Assembly: GCA_031276915.1 (NCBI GenBank)
Contig: JAISME010000169.1
Location: 1 to 33,858, forward strand
Direction: 5' to 3'
DNA from: Zoogloeaceae bacterium
Lineage (GTDB): Bacteria; Pseudomonadota; Gammaproteobacteria; Burkholderiales; Rhodocyclaceae
Length of the DNA stretch: 33,858 nucleotides
The notes under the pieces are model-generated. The model was not told the origin of the DNA, searched no databases, and saw only the letters and a list, made by a program, of their open reading frames with translations. Below, one piece after another: positions 63 through 33,708 of the stretch. The number at the start of each line of letters is the position of its first letter. The stretch's first letter is position 1. The translations under genes and the position numbers were made by a program.

Positions 63-233
63 GAAATGGAGGGTTCGTGGCAAGCGCGTCCAAGGAATCT
101 GTCTCGAAGGCGCGGGCGCGTTCGCCTGTCTTTCTGTTGGCCTCTCGCGCGCGCACAAGGAAGACCCGACAACCGTCTTTTCCACTTTTCGTTCCTGTCC
201 TGTCATGTTCCGCTTCATCATGGCAATCTACAT

Positions 234-248
234 GCAATACATGTGCCA
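234..248 (-). promoter_or_regulatory. Sigma-54 (-24/-12) promoter, copy 1
   Basis: Minus strand TGGCACATGTATTGC(A), matching TGGCACR-N4-TTGCW. Confidence 0.75.
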
Positions 249-265
249 GAAACACTCAAATCCCT

Positions 266-278
266 TAACCCCTTGATT
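266..278 (-). promoter_or_regulatory. IHF-binding-site consensus, copy 1
   Basis: Minus strand AATCAAGGGGTTA = WATCAANNNNTTR exactly, just upstream of the -24 element. Confidence 0.65.
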
Positions 279-431
279 ACCCTTCCTTATCCATTCTCCC
301 ACCCCCACCCCAACAACACAGGAAGTGACAATATTCGTCACCAATGAACCAAAAAATGTCACTTCGCCAGAAAATTCGGCCCGCGCGTCGATGATTTCCG
401 TCAGGGCGTGTCATCAAGATTTTGCAAGAGG

Positions 432-7558: not shown

Positions 7559-8158
7559 TCAGGGCGTCACGCCATAACGACAACGGGCAGGTAGGTACTT
7601 GCCATATTTTTTCAAGGAAGCCGAAACGGCCAAGCTACATCCCCAGACCATGTTGGAAAGATTGGAATTGCCAATTGGATTGCCATTTTCATCAAATGAC
7701 AACACCACTTTGGGTCTTCCATCGGCTTGGATTGGGCCAAAGCCTGGCGTCAGCTTGAACGCGAATTTTGGCACCTTTTTGCCGTCCATCTCGATATAGA
7801 TCAAACCGTCATGACCAAAAGTGTCAGAACCTCCACCCGGATTGACCAGAGGATTGAGCTTGATCGCTGCGATTGCGCCGGTGGGCTTGAATTCGAAATC
7901 CGGGAAAGCTCCCTTGGGTGGTTTTCCGGTGCCGGGGTACGCAACAGTGATTTTTGCCGCGTTGCCGCTGGCGATTGTCTCCGTAATGATCATCTTGGCC
8001 TTTCCCGCGATGCTCAACCCTTCGGCGACATAGGCGCGGGCGATATAGTTCTGATAGGCGGGCAGCGCGATGGCGGCAAGGATGCCGATGATGGCGACGA
8101 CGATCATCAGTTCGATGAGCGTGAAGCCACGCTGGAAGGTGTGTACAAGATGTTTCAT
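7559..8158 (-). CDS. Type IV pilin (PilA-like major/minor pilin)
   Basis: [11 protein letters not shown]^[36 protein letters not shown]: class III signal peptide and pilin N-helix; C-terminal Cys pair 'WGC...KYLPARC' (D-loop). ORF track start 8500 is too far upstream; AAAGGAGC RBS precedes ATG at 8158. Confidence 0.95.
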
Positions 8159-8194
8159 GGTTGTGCTCCTTTGGGAAGAAAAAGAAGGAAGAAC

Positions 8195-8233
8195 AAAAAA
8201 AGCCGCGAACATGTACCAAGGCATGTACCCGCG
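8195..8233 (-). promoter_or_regulatory. Terminator-like hairpin plus U-tract directly upstream of the pilin RBS
   Basis: Minus strand: CGCG-GGT-ACATG-N8-CATGT-T-CGCG-GC-TTTTTTT, ending about 20 nt before the SD; counterpart at 33369-33406. Confidence 0.6.
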
Positions 8234-8316
8234 ACCGGAGTGGTAAAACTGGGAAAAACAAGGGAACCGGAAACCCGGAGGGAAAAGAAACCCGGGAAAC
8301 CCGGAAGGAAAAACGA

Positions 8317-8612
8317 GGTCCTGCGGCCGGCAATTTGTCATTCGCGGATTTGCGCCTTCCCGTGGGGGAAACGGCAAGGTGGGGGGAGCATCCTGCTCCC
8401 CCGTGTCCGAACGGGAGCAGGGTGCTCCCGCTACTTTGCCGTCGGTCCTGCGAACGGCGATTGCCCTGCGGGCAGCAATAATTGTTTTGGGGGAATTCAT
8501 TATCCGCAGGACCGATGCGGCAATCCATGAAGTGGTTCAGCAATCCGAAACGCTGGAGCGGACCGCAAGGCTGTCTGGATTGCCACGGGCCTGCGGCCCT
8601 CGCAATGACGAT
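8317..8612 (-). repeat. Pilin-leader repeat, copy 1
   Basis: Colinear with 33415-33708 (294 nt), including a nearly identical block 'gtccgaacgggagcagg.tgctcccgctactttgccgtcggtcctgcgaacggcgattgccctgcgggcagcaataattgttttggggaa'. Confidence 0.92.
8577..8609. repeat. GTCATTGCGAGGGCC...GGCAATCC dispersed palindromic element, copy 1
   Basis: GGATTGCCACGGGCCTGCGGCCCTCGCAATGAC; same as 33674-33706 with loop change; imperfect palindrome. Confidence 0.85.
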
Positions 8613-8781
8613 GTGGGGTGTGATTACAAGAACGAGGGGAAACACGTCCGCAACCGGGACGGTGAAACAAGGAAAAGCAAAAAAACCGGAAAACCCGGAA
8701 AGGAAAGGGAAACCGGAAGGGGAAGGGGAAGGAAAGGCTGGAGAAGAAGAGAGAAAGAACTCGGCGTTATCCAGACGCCGA

Positions 8782-8821
8782 AAAATTTTCTCCGTTATCT
8801 GTGGATAACGGAGAAAATTTT
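8782..8821. repeat. 18-bp perfect inverted repeat with 4-nt loop
   Basis: AAAATTTTCTCCGTTATC-tgtg-GATAACGGAGAAAATTTT. Confidence 0.95.
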
Positions 8822-8824
8822 CAC

Positions 8825-8880
8825 GTTGTGCGTTGTGCGTTGTGCGTTGTGCGTTGTGCGTTGTGCGTTGTGCGTTGTGC
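8825..8880. repeat. Heptanucleotide tandem repeat (GTTGTGC)8
   Basis: Eight perfect consecutive copies of GTTGTGC (GCACAAC on the minus strand). Confidence 0.98.
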
Positions 8881-8925
8881 GCGCGCGATCGCCAGGCTTT
8901 CAGCCTGGCAATCGCGCGCGCACAA
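8875..8925. repeat. 24-bp inverted repeat, 3-nt loop
   Basis: TTGTGCGCGCGCGATCGCCAGGCT-ttc-AGCCTGGCAATCGCGCGCGCACAA; single mismatch that becomes a G-U wobble in minus-strand RNA. Confidence 0.93.
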
Positions 8926-9000
8926 GGAAGACCCGACAACCGTCTTTTCCACTTCTTGCTCCTGTGCTGTCATGTTCCGCTTCATCATGGCAATCTACAC

Positions 9001-9015
9001 GCAAGACATGTGCCA
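9001..9015 (-). promoter_or_regulatory. Sigma-54 (-24/-12) promoter, copy 2
   Basis: Minus strand TGGCACATGTCTTGC(G), matching TGGCACR-N4-TTGC. Confidence 0.75.
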
Positions 9016-9032
9016 GAAACACTCAAATCCCT

Positions 9033-9045
9033 TAACCCCTTGATT
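9033..9045 (-). promoter_or_regulatory. IHF-binding-site consensus, copy 2
   Basis: Minus strand AATCAAGGGGTTA = WATCAANNNNTTR exactly, same spacing as copy 1. Confidence 0.65.
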
Positions 9046-9091
9046 ATCCTTCCTTGTCCATTCTCCCACCCTCACCCCAACAACACAGGAG

Positions 9092-9129
9092 GTGACAATA
9101 TTCGTCACCAATGAACCAAAAAATGTCAC
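9092..9129 (-). promoter_or_regulatory. Candidate upstream activator sites (bEBP), copy 2
   Basis: GTGAC-N7-GTCAC palindrome (9092-9108) plus extra GTCAC half-site (9125-9129) 21 nt away; same layout at 325-341 and 358-362. Confidence 0.5.
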
Positions 9130-9414
9130 TTCGCGTGCCCCCGGGAGAACAAAACCGCACAGCGGAAATTCCTTGTAGCGGCGAGGGAACGGCACAACCT
9201 TCAGCCTCCCAACCTCTCCACCTTGCACACACCTGTCGCCGTCATCCGGCGCGAGAAACCGGCCTGGAAACCGGGCAGTCCCTGACGAATACCCCTTCCG
9301 GGACATGACTGATGATTTCGAACAATCACCCTGGCGTACCCCGCAAGAGTCAATCCGGGTTGTTCGCATCAATATATAATCGACCGCTGCTTTCCAGCAC
9401 GACCACTAACTTCC

Positions 9415-10361: not shown

Positions 10362-10811
10362 ATGAAGCCCCCCTTCTTTTTCGCCTGTTTCCTTTCCTGC
10401 CTGTCGCTTGCCGCCTGCGCTCCCGCCACGGACACCCGTCCGGGGCAACCTGTCGCGCACCGGCAACAGGCGTTCAGGGAAATCCTGAAAAGTTTCGAGC
10501 CGATGGGCATGGCATTGCGGGAAAACCGTTACGATCCGGAAACCTTTTTACGGCACGCACGCGCACTGGAGCAGCAAAAAGACGCGCCCTGGCCGTACTT
10601 CGGGCCGGAGACGAACTATCCGCCGACCAGGTCGAAGAATGCGGTCTGGTCGGAAGCCGCGTTGTTCGCCAGCGAGCGGGATGCCTTTCTACAGGCCGTG
10701 ACGCGATTGCGGCAGGCTGCCGAAACACGGGACGAGGCGCAGGCGCGGCCTGCCTACGAGGCAGTGCATGAACGTTGCCGTGTTTGCCACAAGGCGTTCA
10801 AATCGGAATGA
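10362..10811 (+). CDS. Cytochrome c'-like lipoprotein
   Basis: Lipobox 'LSLAAC'; C-terminal haem motif 'CRVCH' in the cytochrome c' position; four-helix-like sequence. Confidence 0.8.
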   Translation: MKPPFFFACFLSCLSLAACAPATDTRPGQPVAHRQQAFREILKSFEPMGMALRENRYDPETFLRHARALEQQKDAPWPYFGPETNYPPTRSKNAVWSEAALFASERDAFLQAVTRLRQAAETRDEAQARPAYEAVHERCRVCHKAFKSE

Positions 10812-10823
10812 CGACGGCTTCCG

Positions 10824-11255
10824 TCATTCCAGCACGACCCGGCTTCCCGCCAGACGATCGTGCAGGAACTGACGGTCGGAATCGAAGAGCGCCCAGAAGA
10901 CGCCAACACCAAACAAGAGCAGCGAGGGCCAGGCGGCCAGATAGCGAAAGACCGCCTGCGCAGGACGCAGGGGACGGCCAGACACATCCACGACACGGAT
11001 TTTCCAGGTCTTCAGGGCGGGCGTCTGGCCACCATGCGTCCAGAACCAGACGCAGTACAGCATGAGCAGCAGCAAGAGATGCAACAACAGCAGTCGGGGC
11101 GGCGCGATGACCGGGACAAAGAGACGGAACAGCACGTGCGGCAGCATGAAGCCGAACATGATGACAGCGAAAAGCAGCAGGCTTTCATAGAACATGGCGG
11201 CAAGCCGGCGGCGAATGCTCGGCACGTCGATGGCGTCGGGGAGGGAATCCGTCAT
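10824..11255 (-). CDS. RDD family membrane protein
   Basis: 'RRRLAAMFYESLLLF', 'GGQTPALKTWKIRVVDVSGRPL', 'DRQFLHDRLAGSRVV'. Confidence 0.88.
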   Translation of the reverse strand: MTDSLPDAIDVPSIRRRLAAMFYESLLLFAVIMFGFMLPHVLFRLFVPVIAPPRLLLLHLLLLLMLYCVWFWTHGGQTPALKTWKIRVVDVSGRPLRPAQAVFRYLAAWPSLLLFGVGVFWALFDSDRQFLHDRLAGSRVVLE

Positions 11256-11302
11256 GATTCATCCACGGGGATTGCGGGAGAGAAGCGCGCAGCGCATGCC
11301 GG

Positions 11303-12826
11303 TCATCCCAGGAAAAGCCTGTAGGCCGGGTTTTCCGTTTCGTCCCAGCAGGGATAGCCAAGCTCTTCCAGGAAGCACCGGAATTTCTTCGTATCCTCGG
11401 GCGGCACCTGCATGCCGACGAGCACGCGGCCTGTATCCGCGCCATGGTTGCGATAGTGGAAAAGACTGATGTTCCAGCCCGTGCTCATGCGGTTCAGGAA
11501 GTGCATGAGCGCGCCGGGACGTTCCGGGAACTCGAAACGATAAATACACTCGTCGATCCCCGTGTCCGGAACATGGCCGCCGACCATGTGGCGCACGTGC
11601 AATTTCGCGGTTTCATCCTCGGAAAGATCGATGGCCGGGTAGCCATGCTTTTTCAGGCTTTCCAACAGGCGCAGGGATTCCGCCCGGTTGGCGACCTGTA
11701 TGCCCACGTAGACATGCGCTTCGGAAGGGCGATGGTAACGGTAATTGAATTCGGTGATGCCGTGCTTGCCGATCAGGGAAACGAATTTCCTGTACGCCCC
11801 CGGTTTTTCAGGCAGCGTCACGGCAAAGACCGCCTCACGCTGCTCGCCAATTTCGGCACGCTCGGCAACGAAGCGCAGGCGATCAAAATTGGCGTTCGCG
11901 CCAGACGCGATGGCGACAAGCGTCTTGTCCCGAAGTTTGTGGCGATGCGCATATTCCTTGGCGCCGGCGATAGCGAGCGCGCCGGCGGGCTCCAGAATCG
12001 AGCGCGTATCCTCGAACACATCCTTGATGGCGGCGCAAGCGGCATCCGTGTCGACCAGCACGACATCGTCCAGCAATTCCCGGCAAAGGCGGAAGGTTTC
12101 CTCGCCGACCAGTTGCACGGCGGTGCCGTCGGCGAAAAGGCCCACTTGCTCCAGCCTGACACGCTTGCCAGCGGCGAGCGAGCGTTTCATGGCGTCCGCG
12201 TCGCGGGTCTCCACACCGATCACCTTGATATCGGGCCGTACCGCCTTGACGTAGGCCGCCACGCCGGAAGCCAGGCCGCCGCCGCCGATAGCGGCGAAGA
12301 TCGCGTGGATCGGCCCGTCCTGCTTCCTGTGCTGGCGCAGGATTTCCATGCCGATGGTGCCCTGACCGGCGATTACGTCCGGATCGTCGAACGGATGTAC
12401 GAAGGTGAGTTTTTCCTTTTTTTCCAGTTTCAGGGCATGCGCGTAGGCGGCATCATAGGATTCACCCGCCAGGACCACTTCGCCGCCGCGTTTCCGGACG
12501 GCCTCTACCTTGATGGCGGGCGTGGTGACAGGCATCACGACAACGGCACGGCAACCAAGATGCGCCGCCGACATGGCGACGCCCTGCGCGTGATTGCCGG
12601 CGGACGCGCAGATGACGCCGCGTTTCAGCCGGTCGGCGGAAAGACACGCGATCTTGTTGTGCGCTCCGCGCAACTTGAAGGAAAACACCGGCTGCATGTC
12701 CTCGCGTTTCAGATACACGCGATTGCCGATACGCCCGGAAAGATTCGGCGCAAAATCCAGTTGTGTTTCCTCGGCCAAATCATAGACCTGGGCATTCAGG
12801 ATTTTCTGTAGGTAATCGGGATGCAT
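11303..12826 (-). CDS. ilvA: Threonine ammonia-lyase, biosynthetic (threonine dehydratase)
   Basis: 'NRVYLKREDMQPVFSFKLRGAHNKIA' PLP-lysine motif, 'AIGGGGLASGVA', two C-terminal ACT-like domains. Start placed at internal ATG (MHPDYLQKIL). Confidence 0.95.
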   Translation of the reverse strand: MHPDYLQKILNAQVYDLAEETQLDFAPNLSGRIGNRVYLKREDMQPVFSFKLRGAHNKIACLSADRLKRGVICASAGNHAQGVAMSAAHLGCRAVVVMPVTTPAIKVEAVRKRGGEVVLAGESYDAAYAHALKLEKKEKLTFVHPFDDPDVIAGQGTIGMEILRQHRKQDGPIHAIFAAIGGGGLASGVAAYVKAVRPDIKVIGVETRDADAMKRSLAAGKRVRLEQVGLFADGTAVQLVGEETFRLCRELLDDVVLVDTDAACAAIKDVFEDTRSILEPAGALAIAGAKEYAHRHKLRDKTLVAIASGANANFDRLRFVAERAEIGEQREAVFAVTLPEKPGAYRKFVSLIGKHGITEFNYRYHRPSEAHVYVGIQVANRAESLRLLESLKKHGYPAIDLSEDETAKLHVRHMVGGHVPDTGIDECIYRFEFPERPGALMHFLNRMSTGWNISLFHYRNHGADTGRVLVGMQVPPEDTKKFRCFLEELGYPCWDETENPAYRLFLG

Positions 12827-32734: not shown

Positions 32735-33334
32735 TCACTTCGGCAGGACTACGCTCCTGTACCGGCATCTGCTGGGAATATATTTGGCAATCTTGGTGAA
32801 AGACTGTATTTGGCTGGAGCCACTCACGAGACAACCCCAGACGATGGAACCACCGCCAGCATAATTTTTCTTGCTACCACCAGCGATACCCGAGGCCAGA
32901 GGCGTTTCGGGAACACCGGAATCACCGTCGATCTTGCCAAACCCCGCGGCCAGCCCAATCACGATCCCCAGTCTATCCAGCGTTTTGTTCCTGCCGCCAT
33001 ACCAGATGCGGACAACAGAGTAGTCATCACTTCCCCCGATCTGGATTTTCTTTACATTGGCCGTTGGCTTGAATTCGTAGTTGAAGCTGCCTTTGATCGG
33101 CTTCCCGGTGCCGGGATAACCCGTTTGGGGAAGTGAGCCATTTTCGGTCCAGTAGTCAACGAAAGCCGCTTTGGCCCCTGCCGAGAGTTGCAGCCCTTCG
33201 GCGATGTAGGCGCGGATGGTGTAAGCCTGATAGGCGGGAAGCGCGATGGCGGCAAGGATGCCGATGATGGCAACAACGATCATCAGTTCGATGAGCGTGA
33301 AGCCGCGCTGGAAAACGCGTACAAGATGTTTCAT
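32735..33334 (-). CDS. Type IV pilin (PilA-like), second copy
   Basis: [11 protein letters not shown]^[37 protein letters not shown]-terminal Cys pair 'WGC...KYIPSRC'. ORF track start 33796 runs through the leader repeat; ATG at 33334 has an AAAGGAGC RBS. Confidence 0.95.
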
Positions 33335-33368
33335 GATGATGCTCCTTTGGAAAAAAAGAAGGAAGAAC

Positions 33369-33406
33369 AAAAAAGGCCGCGGACGCGTGAAAGACACGCG
33401 CCCGCG
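33369..33406 (-). promoter_or_regulatory. Terminator-like hairpin plus U-tract upstream of second pilin RBS
   Basis: Minus strand CGCGG-g-CGCGTG-tcttt-CACGCG-t-CCGCG-GCC-TTTTTT; stem arm sequence differs from copy 1 while the pairing is retained. Confidence 0.68.
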
Positions 33407-33414
33407 ACCGGGGT

Positions 33415-33708
33415 GGTCCTGCGGACGGCATTTGTCATCCGCGGATTTGCGCCTTCCCGTGGGGGAAACGGCAAGGTGGGGGGAGCATCCTGTTCCCTCG
33501 TGTCCGAACGGGAGCAGGATGCTCCCGCTACTTTGCCGTCGGTCCTGCGAACGGCGATTGCCCTGCGGGCAGCAATAATTGTTTTGGGGAAACCCGCCGT
33601 CCGCAGGACCGACGTGGCAATCCACGCGGTGGTTCAGTTTTCCGAAACGCTGAAGCAAATTACAAGGCCGTCTGGATTGCCACGGGCCTTCGGCCCTCGC
33701 AATGACGA
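33415..33708 (-). repeat. Pilin-leader repeat, copy 2
   Basis: Colinear with 8317-8612. Confidence 0.92.
33674..33706. repeat. GTCATTGCGAGGGCC...GGCAATCC dispersed palindromic element, copy 2
   Basis: GGATTGCCACGGGCCTTCGGCCCTCGCAATGAC. Confidence 0.85.

Follow-up and report, generated by a model that had tools for sequence, protein, structure and literature searches.

Genes for predicted type IV pilins in the genome of a Zoogloeaceae bacterium are probably independent phase-variable units, in each of which slippage of a short repeat would gate translation-coupled attenuation of the kind known from pil1 of Streptococcus gallolyticus. The window analysed, 33,858 nucleotides long, was the entire contig C162, one of 194 contigs of a MAG of 2.3 Mb (86% complete). 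Its DnaE was 77% identical to that of a betaproteobacterium and about 65–68% identical to those of Rhodocyclaceae.

An earlier note on this DNA, made from the sequence alone, had described a leader repeat of about 295 bp in front of two pilin genes 25 kb apart. This feature is real: positions 8333-8611 and 33430-33708 were 90% identical over 279 nt, gap-free, in direct orientation and 25,097 nt apart, a match that is not attributable to chance. The nearly invariant block, which had been put at about 85 nt, measured about 89 nt (33501-33590 against 8404-8493) with a single mismatch. Both copies lie upstream of minus-strand pilin genes, namely pilin gene 1 (7559..8158; 199 aa; PF07963 N_methyl and TIGR02532), a divergent member of the family, and pilin gene 2 (32735..33334; 199 aa; PF00114 at the cut-off, PF07963). 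The coding starts adjoining the two copies were 83% identical over 187 nt, and the proteins were 48% identical across the matched length with similarity dropping toward the C-terminus. What had been misjudged was the size of the feature. The repeat had been confined to two pilin loci; as a query it gave 113 matches genome-wide, the other window copy being the best, and at least 47 full-length paralogous pilin ORFs (180 codons or more) lay at dispersed sites in the genome. A two-locus duplication was dropped in view of these numbers, and the further pilin cassettes that the earlier note proposed to look for were found in quantity, most of their leaders sharing one plan.

The common order of parts was a sigma-54 module, a leader ORF with a GTG start and a Shine-Dalgarno sequence, a tandem array, a hairpin segment termed D, an optional mosaic block A-B-C, an 80-nt region with a terminator-like hairpin and a second Shine-Dalgarno sequence, and the pilin ATG. 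Promoter, array and pilin were visible together at six loci only, many leaders ending at contig ends. The second leader of the window is such a case, with the right end of C162 lying 524 nt upstream of the ATG of pilin 2; promoter cores elsewhere were found 698-1245 nt upstream. At such distances the sigma-54 module that the earlier note predicted to the right of 33858 would lie beyond the contig.

About 43 copies of the sigma-54 module were counted in the genome. The two that the earlier note placed inside the window were recovered at 112-367 and 8879-9134 (92% identical, about 256 nt), each with a core; the motif TGGCAC-N5-TTGC was located on the minus strand at 234-248 and 9001-9015, with 0.1 occurrences expected by chance. 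The conserved module of locus 1 (8882..9134, minus strand) carries the core TGGCACATGTCTTGC at 9001..9015 and the inverted repeat GTGAC-N7-GTCAC at 9092-9108, which is likely an activator site. TGGCACATGTCTTGC, a -24/-12 core of the form GG-N10-GC, was present in nearly all modules. The module at 112..367 (minus strand) faces the left contig end and presumably belongs to another pilin locus beyond the window. Twenty-six module copies reach contig ends in the direction of transcription, as is expected if the assembly breaks between module and pilin, and about ten pilins with long upstream sequence had no visible sigma-54 module. Motifs of RpoN and activators were absent from the approximately 0.92 Mb scanned (40% of the genome).

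At locus 1 the leader ORF (8821..8952, minus strand; 43 codons) starts with GTG behind the Shine-Dalgarno sequence AGGAG and stops right after a perfect heptanucleotide array, (GCACAAC)8.3, which TRF placed within it at 8824..8881 (minus strand). Among the modules, the GTG was found about 63 nt past the start of the sigma-54 core, and AGGAG or a near variant preceded it in 41. ATGATGAAG was dropped as the leader-ORF start, the frame in the second module type mostly stopping at codon 16, ahead of the array; GTG with AGGAG was chosen because it fits both module types. The encoded peptides were of two types, VEKTVVGSSLCAR and VKRGVEVYRGEPFHC. Using distinct variants, pN/pS of the commoner type was 0.23 in frame versus 1.28 and 2.02 in the other frames; the second type had too few variants to tell. 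At all six complete loci the array lay inside the leader ORF (with only about two copies at one of them), and the stop codon of the ORF lay at the array or shortly beyond it, hundreds of nucleotides short of the terminator.

The arrays sit directly before hairpin D and are mostly perfect. TRF gave 31 near-perfect arrays in pilin leaders or beside hairpin D, built from at least nine kinds of unit, with periods of 7 (26 arrays), 8 (4 arrays) and 4 (1 array) and none that is a multiple of three. The pilins of contig C90 have arrays of their own, (GCAAGCC)9.9 and (GCAA)6. The occurrence of differing frame-shifting repeats at one position suggests that selection acts for frame-shifting itself.

Downstream of the array in leader 1 lies segment D (8612..8823, minus strand), which consists of an 18-bp hairpin at 8782-8822 followed by a pyrimidine-rich tract. 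It is followed by the mosaic A-B-C, which by repeat comparison spans 8317..8612 in leader 1 (repeat copy 1) and 33415..33708 in leader 2 (repeat copy 2; both minus strand), where the remaining leader runs off the contig. A-B-C folds into successive hairpins (z = -9.9, including the 80-nt region), and an Rfam search of the window returned no known RNA family. The mosaic is an optional part of the leader: units A and C also turned up at places other than pilin loci and in relatives that do not have this family, and the leaders of G006, the one genome within the genus with close relatives of the family, lack the full block. Most of the A copies found nevertheless sit in pilin leaders. Occurrence away from pilins, which the earlier note named as refuting its reading, thus applies in part to the repeat; the 80-nt region adjoins a pilin in 42 of its 43 copies.

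The 80-nt region contains a GC-rich hairpin of 15-16 bp, a T-run, the sequence AAAGGAG and the ATG. In front of pilin 1 a terminator-like hairpin with a T7 run lies between promoter and start (8195..8237, minus strand), followed by AAAGGAG at 8166..8172 (minus strand), a position common to about 40 leaders; in front of pilin 2 the corresponding elements are a 15-bp hairpin with a T6 run (33369..33409, minus strand) and AAAGGAG at 33342..33348 (minus strand). A hairpin with a T-run precedes nearly every pilin, and these hairpins are predicted to be intrinsic terminators. In an alignment of 36 distinct copies, 93% of the stem cells were paired, compared with at most 64% in slid controls. Two-sided covariation was slight (3 cells), and changed stem sequences still pair. 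The two divergent pilins of C90 have a wholly different stem in the equivalent place, as do the pilins of G006.

Between array and pilin one reading phase stays open. Segment D of leader 1 has stops in two of the three phases. The open one, phase +2 at hairpin D, continues past the terminator and the pilin ATG in 6/6 complete loci, and in a larger set the D phase was open to the pilin start in 22/22 leaders, compared with 9.3 expected at random phase. In these same leaders the lengths from A to the ATG span all residues modulo 3, usually only one phase is open there, and a single random insertion of 1-2 nt closes the D phase in about half of cases. Lengths from D to A were 122, 125, 131, 140, 152, 158, 164 and 173 nt, equal to 2 modulo 3 in 26 of 28 loci; no pilin turned up at one of the two exceptions, and the other compensates by its open phase. 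Slippage by 3 or 6 nt in the pyrimidine tracts could account for part of the stepping by multiples of three. Without the full mosaic, the leaders of G006 kept array, D, hairpin and open phase (3/3); in two of the three the stop of the leader frame overlaps the pilin start as ATGA.

Open frames by themselves are weak evidence, because the antisense strand is stop-poor and unit A seldom contains stops even outside leaders. Stop-free leaders were dropped as proof of translation after the antisense strand was found to be open in 27 of 31, and the idea that unit A is open only inside leaders was wrong, 19 of 22 outside copies being open in that phase. As evidence, stop-free leaders were replaced by tests of phase consistency, length modulo 3 and codon position. 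The lengths from D to A, the open D phase in 22/22 leaders and the leaders of G006 indicate that the open phase is maintained, with the caveat that the antisense control was open in 11 of the 22 leaders and unit A is stop-poor everywhere; related loci are not independent in these tests. A fused leader-pilin protein was judged unlikely, as the open phase meets all three frames relative to the pilin and the pilin ATG has its own Shine-Dalgarno sequence. In the assembled consensus all six complete loci are OFF, which would be expected if few pilins were ON at a time, or could be due to chance (about 0.09 if phases were random).

The proteins carry the class III prepilin motif and N-terminal helix (PF07963, TIGR02532), and by this motif the family products are predicted type IV pilins, for which a role as major pilus subunit is at most a prediction. 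Neisseria pilins are among the solved structures nearest to pilin 2, with matches at E of about 1e-16. A pilin query gave 83 protein matches in the genome, part of them other pilin-like proteins. Intact pilins adjoin unrelated housekeeping genes (groEL, mig-14, glmS, fumarase, gcvT, lpxC), and the median pairwise identity within the family was 0.58. The expansion looks lineage-specific: a first look for Pfam Pilin candidates gave 54 in this genome and at most 10 in any other listed genome (399 of the order), close relatives within the genus were restricted to three full-length pilins of G006, and in relatives the stretches beside groEL, mig-14 and glmS had no pilin within reach. No member of this pilin family was found in the named genomes searched. 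Close pairs had gene-body dN/dS values of mostly 0.3-0.75 (1.27 in one pair), from which the genes look maintained rather than kept as silent stores. A canonical PilA of 148 aa on contig C108 (L134:1368-1814) has a sigma-54 core 64 nt upstream of its ATG and lacks the array and terminator leader; it is possibly the ancestral single pilin.

Leaders and gene bodies have separate histories. At residues identical between pilins, codon identity was about 0.8 in the first 45 or so codons, versus about 0.48 expected by chance, and dropped to about the chance level in the C-terminal half, in agreement with the earlier note that leader and N-terminus are alike and the C-terminal half has diverged. Leader and gene-body distances were uncorrelated (Mantel r = 0.01 and 0.08; 0.67 for one part of the body against another), which is the pattern that recombination or conversion would give, and pairs with a 3% leader difference can diverge by 42-50% in the C-terminal part. 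These results support an exchange of leader and N-terminus between loci; constraint on the leader could add to the similarity. The conversion proposed in the earlier note is supported in part by the uncorrelated histories, but a duplication of two loci did not stand against at least 47.

The leader anatomy, the number of copies, the conserved frame, the repeat periods, the conserved terminator and the decoupled histories were observed directly; the steps of transcription, termination, switching and conversion we infer as follows. The sigma-54 promoter would give rise to a leader transcript of 0.6-1.2 kb, on which ribosomes would initiate at the GTG behind AGGAG and read the short leader ORF across the 7-, 8- or 4-nt array. 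In the wrong repeat phase they would stop just past the array and leave the downstream leader untranslated, and transcription would end at the hairpins, with the intrinsic terminator before the pilin giving the OFF state; Rho-dependent polarity along the long untranslated leader would probably assist. With the array in the right phase, the ribosome would trail RNA polymerase through leader and terminator to the pilin start (ON). Slippage in the repeat would make each pilin an independent and reversible contingency locus, and recombination of leader and N-terminus would keep the switch regions alike as the gene bodies diverge. The apparent working parts, namely the leader ORF, its frame-switching array and the terminator, had been overlooked in the earlier note. 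We lean, with some reserve, towards the wider picture of about 50 complete pilins, each stochastically ON or OFF by way of an attenuator kept functional by leader recombination, so that single cells would carry random combinations. If this is right, one switch is used about fifty times per genome on a Gram-negative pilin family, combinatorial surface variation could be read from the sequence as the phase of each locus, and a natural set of about 50 variants would be available for attenuation studies.

Repeat-gated, translation-coupled attenuation is itself known. At pil1 of S. gallolyticus the leader ORF stops ahead of a premature terminator or inside it, depending on the number of GCAGA repeats, and the position of this stop was experimentally shown to set pilin transcription (PMC3894217). 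Attenuation by leader-peptide repeats has been described for two pilus operons, pil1 and pil3, of one Gram-positive organism (PMC3894217). The loci described here share with these the non-triplet repeat inside a leader-peptide gene and the intrinsic terminator before the pilin, and on sequence a leader ORF, a non-triplet array, a predicted terminator and a phase-dependent stop were found together at 6/6 complete loci. They differ in being about 50 single type IV pilin loci of a betaproteobacterium rather than two Gram-positive operons, in having sigma-54 promoters and locus-specific units of 7, 8 or 4 nt, and in a leader of up to 1.2 kb that is open to the pilin start. What is new would be the multiplication of such a switch over a dispersed type IV pilin family; the open-access literature yielded no multi-locus or type IV pilus case of phase-variable attenuation by leader repeats.

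Silent pilS copies of Neisseria are not known to have a start codon, Shine-Dalgarno sequence or promoter of their own. Truncated copies of this sort were not what was found here, at least 47 ORFs being full-length, with start and Shine-Dalgarno sequence where the upstream region is visible, and no dominant expression locus of the pilE kind was identified in the genome. The opa genes of Neisseria form a dispersed family of surface-protein genes with a switching repeat at each gene. The present loci resemble such contingency families in dispersal and in having one repeat switch per gene, but the repeats of opa act on the reading frame of the gene that carries them, whereas here a separate upstream ORF is affected, through which transcription would be gated. 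Neisserial intergenic mosaic elements and REP-like palindromic units are short hairpin units in intergenic DNA. A-B-C resembles them and differs in that most A copies lie in pilin leaders. With pilE/pilS (PMC4023411) the present family shares type IV pilins of conserved N-terminus and variable body and signs of recombination; unlike that system, its genes are complete, lie singly at dispersed sites and have a leader and a repeat of their own. Involvement of sigma-N has been studied for class II pilE of Neisseria (PMC6755734).

The leader repeat might instead serve mainly as a recombination substrate, permitting conversion and C-terminal diversification without any role in a switch. Synonymous similarity that is high at the 5' end and at chance level in the C-terminal half speaks for this, as do the uncorrelated leader and body distances and the finding that the window leaders are each other's best matches, although few paralogues resemble pilin 2 less than pilin 1 does. 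As a full account it is unlikely: constraint on the leader could give the similarity signal too, and it would be left unexplained why non-triplet arrays of many different units share one place, why the leader ORF is conserved, why length changes keep the phase and why nearly every pilin has a terminator in front. A substrate or conversion role is probably true in addition to switching, not instead of it. We give very little credence to an arrangement as in Neisseria, with one expressed pilin, many donor copies and leaders that supply homology only. The copies are full-length and have a start, a Shine-Dalgarno sequence and, wherever the sequence reaches far enough, a promoter and switch of their own, the body dN/dS indicates that they are kept as genes, and the canonical PilA, whose separate presence with its own sigma-54 promoter might otherwise recommend it as the expressed pilin beside many relatives with conserved 5' ends and variable bodies, lacks the leader.

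An insulating role for the leaders, as intergenic repeats and hairpins of the ordinary kind with arrays and open frames as by-products of composition, is highly improbable. Units A and C do have copies at other places of this genome and in relatives that do not have the family, and antisense frames are often open; yet none of the array periods is divisible by 3, one position is repeatedly taken by different units, conservation of the commoner leader peptide is confined to frame 0, and G006 keeps the plan without the full A-C block. Assembly of alleles from several strains as separate loci would fit with 194 contigs, many of which end in these repeats, and with six convergent pairs of sigma-54 modules near a palindrome that resemble misjoins. 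With a contamination of 1.46%, intact pilins beside different housekeeping genes and a median pairwise identity far beyond strain variation, we regard such an artefact as next to impossible. The phase-variable attenuator remains the preferred reading.

Several minor observations were made. The convergent pairs, pilin-free between the modules, are on contigs C18, C34, C103, C136, C172 and C187 (L151, L124, L141, L148, L092 and L142); they look like misjoins, by misassembly at the palindrome, or may be genuine promoter pairs. In the window, positions 1-60 and 112-367 hold two sigma-54 pieces of the same orientation close together, representing tandem promoters or an assembly joint. A divergent pilin pair at L111 (C39), 10811-12441, has mirror-image upstream units and is without D, array and sigma-54 module. 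At L144 (C67), 1552-2220, the leader plan, with a degenerate sigma-54 module, hairpin D, terminator and two heptad arrays (ACGGCTC x9 and CAACAAA x9), precedes an ORF of 427 aa that matches no Pfam family and has a hydrophobic N-terminus; it is the sole non-pilin owner of a leader seen. Non-triplet arrays away from pilins, possibly further contingency loci, were found at L167:4780 (C69), L149 (C136:28150) and L169 (C180:7831), with the units CAGAGGA x23.6, CTGTC x13.4 and CTGTCTT x4.4; their neighbourhoods include a type VI ImpA-type gene, a BrnT/BrnA toxin-antitoxin ORF and a PEP-CTERM protein. One related genome that lacks the pilin expansion, G001, likewise has a long (GCACAAC)n array (C170:166-263).
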